64,000 nt of DNA from Actinocatenispora rupis (GTDB taxonomy: Bacteria; Actinomycetota; Actinomycetes; Mycobacteriales; Micromonosporaceae), in the NCBI RefSeq assembly GCF_016861975.1, contig NZ_BOMB01000001.1, positions 248,001-312,000 on the forward strand, given 5' to 3'. The notes beneath the pieces are model-generated. The model made no database searches and had not been told where the DNA came from. It was given only the letters and a program-made list of their open reading frames with translations. Positions within the stretch are counted from its first letter, which is position 1, and every line of letters begins with the position of its first letter. Position numbers and translations under genes: made by a program. This document shows positions 10,103-53,038 of this stretch, in pieces.

Positions 10103-10189
10103 TGGTGCCGAGAGCGGGACTCGAACCCGCACGCCCTTTCGGACAAAAGCTTTTGAGGCTTTCGTGTCTGCCTATTCCACCATCTCGGC
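10103..10189 (-). tRNA. tRNA-Leu (anticodon CAA), CCA end encoded
   Basis: On the minus strand the acceptor GCCGAGA (10183-10189) pairs with TCTCGGC next to a discriminator A at 10106. CCA is encoded at 10103-10105. The anticodon stem AAAGC/GCTTT encloses loop CTCAAAA, giving anticodon CAA for UUG codons. A long variable arm (GTCCGAAAGGGC region) and T-arm GCGGGTTCGAGTCCCGC are as expected for a class II tRNA-Leu. Confidence 0.95.
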
Positions 10190-12395: not shown

Positions 12396-12422
12396 GTGGG
12401 GCCGGCGAGCCGCCGGCCCCAC
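12396..12422 (+). terminator. Hairpin between livJ and livH
   Basis: GTGGGGCCGGCG and its exact reverse complement form a 12-bp stem with a 3-nt loop, 6 nt after the livJ stop. Placed between receptor and permease, it probably acts as a partial terminator or 3' mRNA stabiliser that keeps livJ mRNA more abundant than the rest. Confidence 0.7.
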
Positions 12423-17094: not shown

Positions 17095-18060
17095 ATGTCC
17101 TCCACGACATCGATCCGGAACCGCCCGGAAGCCATCCGGGCGGTTCCGGTCCGTCACCCCGGCCGGTGGATCGCGGTCGCGGTGATCGTGCTGTTGACCG
17201 CCATGTTCGTCAACATGCTGGTGACGAACTCGGCGTTCCACTGGGACTTCATCGCCCAGAACATCCTGAGTACGCCGGTCGCGCGCGGGGCGCTGACCTC
17301 GATGGAGCTGACCATCTGCGCGATGGTCATCGGCATCGTGCTGGGCGTGGTGCTGGCCATCATGCGGCTCTCGCCGAACCGGGTGCTCTCCAGCGCGGCC
17401 TGGCTGTACATCTGGGCGTTCCGCGGCATTCCGCGGCTGGTGCTGTGCGTGCTGTTCGGCAACCTGGGCATCCTGTACGGCAGGCTGGAGTTCGGGCTGC
17501 CGTTCGACCACCAGATCGGGCAGCTGTTCGGGGTGACCGACTTCCACGCCCGGATCTTCGGGCTGAACTGGTCGTCGCTGATCTACGGCTTCGTGGCCGG
17601 GCTGCTGGCGCTGGCGCTGTCCGAGGGCGCGTACATGGCGGAGATCGTGCGGGCCGGCATGCAGGCGGTCGACCCGGGGCAGACGGAGGCGGCGCAGGCG
17701 CTGGGCATGCGGCGCCCGACCGTCCTGCGCCGGATCGTACTGCCGCAGGCGATGCGGGTGATCGTCCCGCCGACCGGCAACGAGACGATCGCGATGCTCA
17801 AGGACACCTCGCTGGTGGCGTACGTGCCGGTCACCAACGAACTGTTCTTCCAGCTGCAACACATCGGCGCGCGGACGTACCTGATCTTCCCGATGCTGGT
17901 CGCCGCCTGCATCTGGTACCTGGCGATGACGTCGGTACTGATGGTGGGGCAGTATTTCTTGGAGAAGCGGTTCTCCCGCGGGTTCGGTGCGACGGGGCGG
18001 GCCCGCATGCGGTTGCGGACGCGCGGGGCCGGCGCGCCGGGAGGGGTCGTCGAAGAATGA
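17095..18060 (+). CDS. Polar amino acid ABC transporter permease (HisM/GlnP family)
   Basis: The membrane subunit, 321 residues with five to six helices. The inner-membrane helices include [29 protein letters not shown]. The EAA loop that docks on the ATPase is clear: [26 protein letters not shown], followed by [20 protein letters not shown]. The N-terminus has a cytoplasmic extension of about 25 residues, and the Arg-rich tail ([12 protein letters not shown]) is unusual. Only one permease gene is present, so it presumably homodimerises. The ATG is 5 nt after the receptor stop. Confidence 0.93.
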
Positions 18061-37742: not shown

Positions 37743-37774
37743 GCGAGACCCCGGCCCGTGGGCCGGGGTCTCGC
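37743..37774. terminator. Perfect 15-bp hairpin in the response regulator-uvrB spacer
   Basis: GCGAGACCCCGGCCC is followed after two bases by its exact reverse complement. It is 364 bases after the response regulator stop, so it may end the exporter operon transcript or shield uvrB from read-through. Confidence 0.55.
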
Positions 37775-40909: not shown

Positions 40910-41171
40910 GTCGGCCAGGATGCCGCACCGGTACGGGGGCCTGCCGGTCGGGGCCTCGTACCGGGGGATGGTCGGTGTGCGGTGGGGCGGAAGGGATCCG
41001 GGGGTTGGGACGGTGTCGCGGGGTCGTTCGGGCCGAGACGGGACGTACCGCCGCAGTACGCGGGCGCCGCGCCGCGCGTCGTCCCGCCACACCGCCGTGA
41101 CCAGCGGATTGCGCTGCGAGTTCGGTCACCCCGGTTGCGCGCATCGGCCACTCAAGGGAGAGAATATGGAC

Positions 41172-41313
41172 GAGGAGGGGAGTACTCCCTACGCGTCGGC
41201 TCCGTCAACACGGCGTGCCCCGGCCCAACCGGCCGGTGACACCCCGGGCCCGGCGGCTGTGGCTCCGGCCATGGTGGAGGAGACCTCCGGTAGACAGTCG
41301 TATCTACCGGAGG
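41172..41313 (+). promoter_or_regulatory. yybP-ykoY-type Mn2+ riboswitch with SD-sequestering hairpin
   Basis: Conserved marks in order are GGGGAGTA (41177-41184), CCTACGCG, CGTCAACA (41203-41210), a GC-rich CCCGGGCCCGGCGGCTG segment and GAGACC (41280-41285). These match the Mn2+-sensing yybP-ykoY class, whose best-known client is the TerC/YkoY family found here. CCTCCGGTAGA (41284-41294) and TCTACCGGAGG (41303-41313) form a perfect 11-bp hairpin that buries the terC Shine-Dalgarno GGAGGG. The same CCTCC could instead pair with GAGGAGG at 41172-41178 when the aptamer folds, freeing the site. This predicts Mn2+-activated translation. Confidence 0.8.
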
Positions 41314-41323
41314 GATTCCCGGC

Positions 41324-42322
41324 GTGGTGGTACATGGGTGGGTCTGGGCCACAACGATCGTGGTCCTCCTGGCGATCCTGCTGATCGATCTGGCGGTGAT
41401 CGGACGACGCCCACATGTGCCGTCGATGCGCGAATGCACGCTCTGGGTGGTGCTGTACGTCGGGCTCGCCGGACTGTTCGGCCTCGGTCTCTATCTGCTG
41501 TCCGGGCCGAAGCCGGCCACCGAGTTCTTCGCCGGCTGGATCACCGAGTACAGCCTGTCGGTGGACAACCTGTTCGTCTTCGTGATCATCATGTCGCGGT
41601 TCGCGGTGCCGCGCCGGTACCAGCAGAAGGTGTTGCTGATCGGCATCGTGCTGGCGCTGGTGATGCGCGGCCTGTTCATCGCCGCGGGCGCCGCGATGAT
41701 CGAGCGGTTCGCCTGGGTGTTCTACGTCTTCGGCGCGTTCCTGGTGTACACGGCGGTGAAGACCGCGGTGCACAAGGAGGGCGACGAGGCCGACGAGTTC
41801 AAGGTGAACCCGCTGGTGCGGTGGGCGCGCCGGAGACTGCCGCTGTCACGGGAGTTCGGCGAGGGGCGCGTGCTGGTCCGGGAGGGCGGGCGGCGGATGG
41901 TCACGCCGATGCTGATCGTGATGATCACGATCGGTACGACGGACCTGCTGTTCGCGCTGGACTCGATCCCGGCGATCTTCGGCCTGACGAAGGAGGCGTA
42001 CCTGGTGTTCGCCGCCAACGTGTTCGCCCTGATGGGCCTGCGCCAGCTCTACTTCCTGCTCGGTGGCCTGATGGAACGCCTGGTGTACCTGAACGTCGGG
42101 CTCGGCGTGATCCTCGGGTTCATCGGCGTGAAGCTGATCCTGGAGGCCATGCACGAGAACGAGCTGCCGTTCGTCAACGGCGGGCAGCCGATCACGTGGG
42201 CGCCGCACGTACCGATCTGGCTGTCGTTGTCGGTGATCGTGGCGGCGTTGGCGGTGACCACCGCGGCGAGCCTGGTGAAGACGAGCGTCCAGGCCCGCCG
42301 CGCGGCACACGCGGAACGGTGA
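41324..42322 (+). CDS. TerC-family integral membrane protein
   Basis: 332 residues and about eight to nine helices. Typical marks are an Asp in helix 1 (LLAILLIDLAVIGRR), WITEYSLSVDNLFVFVIIMSRFAVP (the diagnostic E-x-SLSVDN) and the mirrored TDLLFALDSIPAIFGLTKEAYLVFAANVFALMGLRQLYFLL. TerC/Alx proteins export Mn2+ or help metallate secreted enzymes and are linked to tellurite resistance. The GTG at 41324 follows GGAGGG by 9 nt; that site lies in the hairpin of the riboswitch. Upstream ATG-initiated frames run through the riboswitch and were rejected. Convergent with the NlpC/P60 gene, 3 bp between stops. Confidence 0.93.
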   Translation: MVVHGWVWATTIVVLLAILLIDLAVIGRRPHVPSMRECTLWVVLYVGLAGLFGLGLYLLSGPKPATEFFAGWITEYSLSVDNLFVFVIIMSRFAVPRRYQQKVLLIGIVLALVMRGLFIAAGAAMIERFAWVFYVFGAFLVYTAVKTAVHKEGDEADEFKVNPLVRWARRRLPLSREFGEGRVLVREGGRRMVTPMLIVMITIGTTDLLFALDSIPAIFGLTKEAYLVFAANVFALMGLRQLYFLLGGLMERLVYLNVGLGVILGFIGVKLILEAMHENELPFVNGGQPITWAPHVPIWLSLSVIVAALAVTTAASLVKTSVQARRAAHAER

Positions 42323-43499: not shown

Positions 43500-44585
43500 T
43501 CACGGTTCGGCGACTGTCAGCGCATCGATGCCCAGACCGGGCGCATCGGGCAGCCGTACGGTGGGCCCCTCGTACGTGATGCCGCCGGTCACGGGGGCCG
43601 ATGTGAGCCACCACGCGGCGTCGAGGTCGCTGACCGCGCTCGTGCCGTACGCGGCGACGAGGCTGGCGGCCGCGCCGACGCCGATGTGCGTCTCCATCAT
43701 CGAACCGACCATGGTGCCCATGCCGGCCGCCTCCGCCAGGTCCAGCAGCGTGCGGGCCGGTCCGAGGCCGGCGGACTTGGCGAGCTTGACGTTCACCATG
43801 TCGGCGGCCCGCCGCTCGATCACCGCGAGCAGCTCGCGGATGCCGTACACGGCCTCGTCGGCGAGGGTGAGGGTGTCCACGTGTGCGGTGACGTGCGCGA
43901 GACCGGCCACGTCGTGCCCGTCGACGGGCTGCTCGACCAGCTCGACGTCGGTGCCGGCGTCCTCCATCGCCCGGATCGCCCGTACTGCCTGGCGTGGCGT
44001 CCAGCCCTGGTTGGCGTCCAGCCGGATCCGTACGCCGGGGCCGACGGCGGCGCGGATCGCGCGCACCCGGGCCACGTCGCCGACCGCGTCCGTACCGACC
44101 TTGATCTTGAGTACGTCGAAGCCCTCGGCGACGCGGGCCGCCGCGGTGGCCGCGAGTTCGTCCGGCTCGGCGACCGACAGCGTCACGTCGGTACGCGCGG
44201 TCGTGGCCGACCCGCCGAGGAACTGTGCCAGCGGTACGCCGAGGCGGCGGGCGGCGAGGTCGTGCAGCGCGACGTCCACCGCGCCCTTCGCGCCGTGGTT
44301 GCCGACCACCGCGCCCCGCACCGTACGCAGCAGGTCGTGGAGGTCGTCCGGGTCGCGGCCGAGCACCGCGTCGCGCAGCGGGCCGTCGATGCAGGCGCGG
44401 GCGCCGGCCAGCGACTCGCCGGTCACCCGCCAGACCTGCGGGGCCTCGCCGTAGCCGCGGTGGCCGTGCTCGTCGGTCACCACGACCACCACCGTGTCGG
44501 TGGTCGTGGTGCGCCGCAGCGCGGTCACGAACGGCGTGTGCAGGGGGGCACTGACCAGGTGGGTCGTCACATCCAGGATCGGCAC
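43500..44585 (-). CDS. L-Ala-D/L-Glu epimerase (enolase superfamily)
   Basis: Inverts the glutamate of L-Ala-D-Glu released from murein so the dipeptide can be broken down. It has 361 residues. The enolase-superfamily barrel has the K-x-K pair at 160-162 (FDVLKIKVG). Metal ligands are D190 (RLDANQGW), E218 (ELVEQPV) and D243 (TLADEAV), and the second catalytic Lys region is MVNVKLAKSAGLG. These residues are those of dipeptide epimerases rather than of mandelate racemases. The GTG start has TACGCT 7 nt upstream. The following NlpC/P60 gene supplies the muropeptide substrate, as with ykfB/ykfC of Bacillus. Confidence 0.9.
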   Translation of the reverse strand: MPILDVTTHLVSAPLHTPFVTALRRTTTTDTVVVVVTDEHGHRGYGEAPQVWRVTGESLAGARACIDGPLRDAVLGRDPDDLHDLLRTVRGAVVGNHGAKGAVDVALHDLAARRLGVPLAQFLGGSATTARTDVTLSVAEPDELAATAAARVAEGFDVLKIKVGTDAVGDVARVRAIRAAVGPGVRIRLDANQGWTPRQAVRAIRAMEDAGTDVELVEQPVDGHDVAGLAHVTAHVDTLTLADEAVYGIRELLAVIERRAADMVNVKLAKSAGLGPARTLLDLAEAAGMGTMVGSMMETHIGVGAAASLVAAYGTSAVSDLDAAWWLTSAPVTGGITYEGPTVRLPDAPGLGIDALTVAEP

Positions 44586-52991: not shown

Positions 52992-53000
52992 CGGATGCGC

Positions 53001-53032
53001 GACGGCCCGGCGCGGGACCGTGCCGGGCCGTC
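53001..53032. terminator. Bidirectional terminator between protease and MBL genes
   Basis: GACGGCCCGGC (53001-53011) pairs perfectly with GCCGGGCCGTC (53022-53032). It fills the 47-bp gap between two convergent stops. Confidence 0.85.
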
Positions 53033-53038
53033 GTCGTG

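Follow-up and report, generated by a model that had tools for sequence, protein, structure and literature searches.

Riboswitches of the yybP-ykoY class, their metal, their switch helix and a member acting on translation are reportedly covered by Dambach 2015 and Price 2015. In the accessible parts of more recent sources, the class and its metal likewise appear as published knowledge (PMC9603457, PMC6754395), and P1.1 is given as the switch helix of the class (PMC6754395, PMC11087558). The members with solved structures, from L. lactis and X. oryzae, resemble the terC leader described here, which lies in a 64-kb window (the whole stretch of DNA that was analysed): P1.1 is the switch helix, and its 3' strand is common to a competing hairpin. 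However, as far as the accessible parts of the descriptions go, the competing hairpin in L. lactis and X. oryzae is a transcription terminator, whereas in the terC leader it takes in the Shine-Dalgarno sequence, SD (PMC6754395, PMC11087558).

E. coli mntP, according to the part of PMC9603457 that is accessible, is a Mn2+-dependent riboswitch turning on translation initiation. It has the same L1 and GAGACC core as the terC leader, but it precedes another target gene and is weakly matched by our model R2 (see below) with search filters off alone. The aptamer in the leader of E. coli alx, also a TerC-family gene, has GGGGAGTA, TCGTCA, CCGG and GAGACC ordered and nested alike; in alx, the P4 region is longer and P1.1 is rich in A (AAAGG/CCTT). 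The leader of Corynebacterium glutamicum cg2157 (terC), which is of the same aptamer class, comes from an actinobacterium and precedes the same gene; the accessible part of its description reports a yybP-ykoY leader transcript observed by RNA-seq and 49.13 bits with the Rfam release then in use (PMC3890552). Since the class, the metal, the switch helix, mntP and the C. glutamicum terC leader have all been published, the terC leader joins a known class. Among the matches listed from the open-licence literature, in their accessible parts, we found no study of such a platform in the family to which the window belongs.

Aptamer of the terC leader

The elements of the leader and its gene are as follows (positions in the window).

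41160-41165, +: -10-like hexamer GAGAAT, a putative promoter element judging from the clustering of [TG]ANN[ACT]T upstream of GGGGAGTA
41169-41293, +: whole aptamer as delimited by covariance models (R1 76.2 bits, R2 64.4 bits)
41172-41178, +: GAGGAGG, read directly
41174-41178, +: P1.1 5' strand GGAGG (switch helix; resembles an SD), pairing with 41284-41288
41177-41184, +: L1 core GGGGAGTA, without variation in the 55 leaders of alignment A2, a constancy that the search patterns demand; shared with E. coli mntP and alx
41185-41188, +: P1.2 5' strand CTCC, with its partner GGAG at 41276-41279
41203-41210, +: L3 core CGTCAACA, the loop that senses the metal in relatives of solved structure; in A2, CGTCA and CACG do not vary, which the patterns partly impose; CGTCA also in alx
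41280-41285, +: GAGACC, the 3' side of L1 and the first P1.1 pairs; required by the patterns; also in mntP and alx
41284-41288, +: shared strand CCTCC, either P1.1 3' strand or anti-SD, from the sequence and predicted folds
41284-41313, +: OFF hairpin of 11 perfect pairs with an 8-nt loop; arms CCTCCGGTAGA (41284-41294) and TCTACCGGAGG (41303-41313)
41309-41314, +: SD GGAGGG of terC, read directly
41324-42322, +: terC, TerC-family membrane protein, GTG start at 41324 (PF03741, 2.5e-51)

The initial annotation had named three motifs in a fixed order before a TerC-family gene, and direct reading confirms both the order and the coordinates: GGGGAGTA of L1, CGTCA of L3 and GAGACC follow one another within the nesting of P1.1, P1.2 and P3. 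Its perfect 11-bp hairpin over the SD is likewise found at 41284-41294/41303-41313, except that the last G of GGAGGG falls outside the stem. From the closing stem that it had drawn between GAGGAGG and CCTCC, five pairs stand (41174-41178 with 41284-41288), while 41172-41173 face G41289-G41290 and are unpaired. The A of CGTCA is present as A41207; it would be the counterpart of the sensing adenosine in solved structures, and Mn2+ binding is predicted.

Homology was assessed with two covariance models. R1, built from all 55 aligned leaders of A2, gives the window 76.2 bits as a member of its training set. R2, built from 23 actinobacterial leaders outside the family of the window, finds the window at 64.4 bits (E 1.2e-14), with the reservation that its structure came from A2, of which the window is part, and that E-values are rough; two other copies in the same genome score 48.9 and 49.1 bits with R2. 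The alx leader, absent from the training of R1, is found by R1 (37.2 bits, E 5.6e-8) and by R2 (44.5 bits, E 1.7e-9; the same 44.5 bits with filters off), the R2 match spanning the whole model. With default filters, mntP is unlisted by R1 and R2 at E<=1; with filters off, the best R2 match at the mntP locus is mntP itself (15.1 bits, E 0.0024). On the sequence side, the main evidence for the proposed class membership is the recovery of the window and alx by R2. The claim of yybP-ykoY-type membership is supported by this recovery and is in line with covariation, with the target genes and with the conservation of the SD-burying hairpin. Comparison demonstrates that the leaders keep the predicted aptamer fold (P1.1, P1.2, P3 and P4) and that this fold has a homologue in the leader of E. 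coli alx.

The initial annotation had also held that the lack of a covariance-model hit would speak against it, and, taken literally, such a lack is what we obtained: Rfam 15 RF00080 gave no match in 40950-41450 at E<=10. Scanning the whole window with Rfam 15 gave no RF00080 match either, and RF00080 was silent in 18 loci of the family, the locus of the window included. In the host genome, no RF00080 match lies above the cut-off; a weak one on contig C49 falls inside the GDT1-leader copy found by R1 (see below). However, E. coli mntP, our positive control, reaches 41.6 bits with RF00080, under the cut-off of 45, and the E. coli alx leader is unlisted at E<=0.01, as well as at E<=10 in a 451-base stretch; the miss of RF00080 therefore carries little weight and is no fair refuter. 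In 14 control genomes, RF00080 gives matches in nine and matches above the cut-off in two. We treat its miss as a limit of the model and not as a defining biological feature.

Alignment A2 contains 55 leaders thinned from 82: 32 of the 55, including the window, are from the family and 23 from elsewhere in the class. Five helices covary over these leaders. In A2, 92.5% of cells are paired (81.1% shuffled), 162 cells are changed on both sides (49.4 shuffled), and two-sided changes occur at 19 of 27 pairs (12.0 shuffled). The covariation score is 0.364, against 0.165 for shuffled and 0.064 to 0.131 for slid versions, the latter control favouring a structure that was itself informed by A2. None of 500 shuffles reaches the real value on any of five covariation measures, a control that relatedness of the leaders inflates. 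P1.1 is paired in 98.5% of cells, with two-sided changes at two of its five pairs. In P1.2, the first pair is UA in 43 leaders and CG in 7, and the second is UA in 34, CG in 12 and UG in 6. A pairing of columns 11-12 with 19-20 proposed by RNAalifold was replaced by P1.2, which covaries. Because the search patterns contain them, GGGGAGTA, GTCA and GAGACC are to some extent invariant by design, and CCTCC is enriched.

Predicted burial of the Shine-Dalgarno sequence by a shared strand

The platform was compared over 213 elements, drawn from TerC-fetched loci (30 elements), from patterns containing GAGACCTCCG or GAGACCTYCGG, from a looser pattern and from R1. A terC gene lies downstream in 204 of them, or in 174 of 183 without the 30 from TerC-fetched loci. 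A recognisable SD is present in 199 of the 204 TerC leaders (GGAGG in 183 of them) and missing in five. The stretch folded in each leader starts with the CC of GAGACC and ends shortly after the start codon, and burial was defined as pairing of at least four SD-core bases with the first nine bases, i.e., the P1.1 3' strand and what follows it. Predicted folds bury the SD by the shared strand in 182 of the 199 leaders, close relatives being unthinned; the element counts (213, 204, 199, 182, 183, 174) rest on a regular expression over the retrieved loci. Since CCTCC will always fit GGAGG, arms exchanged among leaders served as a control. In 167 distinct arm pairs, the SD arm and the shared strand form 9.01 pairs on average, compared with 7.74 after swapping, and eight or more pairs are formed by 80.8% of real against 54.8% of swapped arms, the highest of 200 swaps reaching 62.9%. 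The SD arm is part of no search pattern.

P1.1 and the SD-burying hairpin are mutually exclusive through one common strand, as is seen from the sequence, the 182 of 199 folds and the swap control. The comparison establishes, at the level of predicted pairing, that the P1.1 3' strand is also a strand able to pair with the SD of terC. The leader might instead belong to a yybP-ykoY relative under mainly transcriptional control (Rho-dependent or intrinsic termination), its hairpin being the decision point and not a mask of the SD. The best-studied members do act on termination, according to the accessible parts of PMC6754395 and PMC11087558, and the copies before the GDT1 and exchanger genes of the host show no SD hairpin by eye. 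However, no T-run follows the hairpin, and the P1.1-competing strand, as folded, includes the SD in 182 of the 199 leaders and lies near the start codon, which fits translation; we regard mainly transcriptional control as unlikely.

Seventeen of the 199 leaders fail the burial test (L004, L005, L091-L093, L095, L097-L102, L104, L172, L190, L193 and L228). In L004 and L005, two of three same-genus relatives, the hairpin is kept with a mismatch at the SD. The shared strand is other than CCTCCG in 14 TerC leaders. In three of the leaders, AAGG is found in all three strands (5' strand, shared strand and SD arm): GCAAGG / CCTTGTG / CACAAGG in L102, TCAAGG / CCTTGTG / CACAAGG in L104 and TTAAGG / CCTTGA / TCAAGG in L091; these three fail the SD-core test because the pairing arm overlaps the start of the SD alone (AAGGAG or AAGGGG). 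L078 and L157 retain CCGGAGG as their SD arm, with a G-U in the pairing, and in L097-L101, P1.1 is changed and has no matching SD arm. Such sequences suggest, from a few leaders only, a possible joint evolution of the three strands.

Seven perfect hairpins with arms of at least 11 (this one included) occur in the window, compared with 0-3 in each of eight first-order Markov controls, and the hairpin alone is weaker evidence than the ordered pattern. A chance hairpin is rejected for this site because of its conservation, though hairpins are in excess in the window.

When 41169-41345 is folded freely, the predicted pair probability of the hairpin is 0.94-1 and that of P1.1 is 0. The ensemble energy is -94.1 kcal/mol, against -76.9 kcal/mol with P1.1 enforced, so that OFF is favoured by about 17 kcal/mol in energies that leave Mn2+ and tertiary docking outside. 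Enforcing P1.1 together with P1.2 leaves a 6-pair stub (41289-41294/41303-41308). In the ON-constrained fold, the SD bases 41309-41312 are unpaired with a probability of 0.78-0.93, versus 0 in the free fold, while 41313-41314 and the GTG are mostly paired (probability unpaired 0.03-0.25). Such a stable hairpin, with P1.1 absent from the free ensemble and perfect hairpins of such size in excess in the window (the seven mentioned above), would also be expected of a constitutive mask of the ribosome-binding site or an RNA thermometer next to a relic or uncoupled aptamer. Yet in many families the aptamer helices have been preserved through covarying changes, and shared strands match the SD arm of their own leader better than arms taken from other leaders; we consider a constitutive mask or thermometer very improbable.

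We consider it likely that the terC leader is a yybP-ykoY-type Mn2+ riboswitch with a translational ON platform. Mn2+ binding, the ON direction, release of the ribosome-binding site and the timing are what we infer for such a switch. In this riboswitch, Mn2+ would dock L1 on L3 and stabilise P1.1 (41174-41178/41284-41288) during transcription, ahead of the synthesis of the SD arm. This arm would then meet an occupied partner, leaving the 6-pair stub and an exposed SD, and TerC would be made. Without Mn2+, the 5' strand would fold locally (GGGAGTACTCCC being self-complementary), the 11-pair hairpin would cover the SD, and terC would be off. When transcripts are cut off at 41290, 41300 and 41308, their predicted folds lack P1.1, and a local GGAGG-AGA-CCTCC hairpin occupies the shared strand; simple folding thus fails to show P1.1 forming first. 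Kinetic control is probably to be favoured by likeness to the L. lactis switch, as given in the accessible part of PMC11087558, although the predicted folds lend it no support.

In the 80 nt upstream of GGGGAGTA in the 213 leaders, 70 of 163 matches of [TG]ANN[ACT]T fall at -21 to -17. Judging from the hexamer GAGAAT, the 5' end of the mRNA may lie at about 41171-41173, just before P1.1. One could also imagine that translation of a short leader ORF, the one candidate considered (ATG 41166, 72 codons, overlapping terC), opens the hairpin; an SD-like AAGGGAG precedes this ATG, and the frame is open to 41384. However, the ORF has no Pfam match, the same-genus relative L003 has the ATG in a different frame, none is present in L004 and L005, and the clustered -10-like hexamer would start the mRNA downstream of ATG 41166. 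Attenuation by a leader ORF, which we hold to be scarcely credible, was rejected, the frame not being kept in three same-genus relatives and likely lying upstream of the mRNA start.

Spread among Actinomycetes and target genes

Of 150 genomes of the family, 85 (the host included) contain the ordered pattern GGGGAGTA..CGTCARCA..GAGACCTCCG, and none contains a reversed control pattern; TerC was found in 149 of the 150. A looser pattern, whose gap limits exclude the window itself, matches 31 of 394 class genomes, and its control matches none. At E<=1e-4, R1 finds the element in 132 of the 150 genomes of the family, with 11 of the 18 negative ones being of one genus (g12), and in 119 of 197 class genomes, some of the genomes counted being part of the R1 training. 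RF00080 gives weak matches (E<=1) in 14 of 150 family genomes, none above the cut-off, and among 197 Actinomycetes genomes it finds three at E<=1e-4 and none above the cut-off; the genome counts for both models come from a first look with strict filters. A pattern scan of contigs gave at least 118 stretches. Among the 80 listed, the genera include Amycolatopsis, Corynebacterium, Rhodococcus, Nocardioides, Blastococcus, Streptomyces and others, and the best TerC matches are in Planosporangium and Hamadaea (66% identity), both of the Micromonosporaceae.

Such a distribution suggests that the riboswitch is common in Actinomycetes. The main interest, in our opinion, lies in the annotation gap between R1 (119 of 197 class genomes) and RF00080 (0 of 197 above the cut-off), and the RF00080 model may need a new seed. 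A broader reading, to which we would give a little less than an even chance, is that we are dealing with a class-wide, mostly GC-rich Mn2+ riboswitch subtype of Actinomycetes, largely missed by the current Rfam model, in which a CCTCC-type strand is contested by two GGAGG look-alikes, at the mRNA 5' end and in the SD of terC, so that a race in the course of transcription decides how far terC is translated. Were this subtype real, the 5' strand would imitate the SD, and therefore P1.1, anti-SD and SD would be bound to evolve together. The terC leader would also offer a compact model of a translational switch in a GC-rich host.

With R1, three places in the host genome score above 46 bits, the next-best reaching 15.7 bits. 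Besides the copy before terC, these are:

C49:64947-65048 (L109:1501-1602): copy found by R1 before a GDT1 gene (PF01169, 1.9e-44)
C10:37141-37247 (L110:1501-1607): copy found by R1 before a Na_Ca_ex exchanger gene (PF01699, 8.4e-27)

TerC, GDT1 and an exchanger are thereby placed under one likely Mn2+-sensing RNA in the same genome. UPF0016 is another name of GDT1, and yrbG belongs to the exchanger family. By eye, the platforms of L109 and L110 differ from that of the terC copy; in L110, CCTTCGACC..GGTCGAGG would compete with P1.1 but is not an SD. The accessible part of a study of Vibrionaceae gives comparable predictions of yybP-ykoY before mneA (UPF0016), terC and, in V. vulnificus, yrbG (PMC13274385).

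Among the 9 of 183 elements lacking terC, L202 sits at the end of its locus. In L123 (G062:C1:216904-217010), a 98.6-bit copy with an SD hairpin precedes an 89-codon ORF, which is not terC and looks like a small membrane protein; L054 and L087 are further copies lacking terC, L054 having, by eye, a similar small ORF. A copy in a 2.3-Mb actinobacterial genome (L103:1493-1603) stands directly before a GreA/GreB-domain gene (PF01272), an unusual target. The actinobacterial pattern was also seen in Chloroflexota MAG contigs before P-type cation ATPases (L204:3523-3633 and L210:5224-5313).

Finally, we would like to mention other features of the window. Six further perfect hairpins with arms of 12-18 pairs lie at 2057-2100, 12396-12422, 17115-17149, 37743-37774, 44478-44511 and 53000-53033 and are perhaps terminators, and a tRNA gene (RF00005, 58.2 bits) occupies 10106-10189 on the minus strand.
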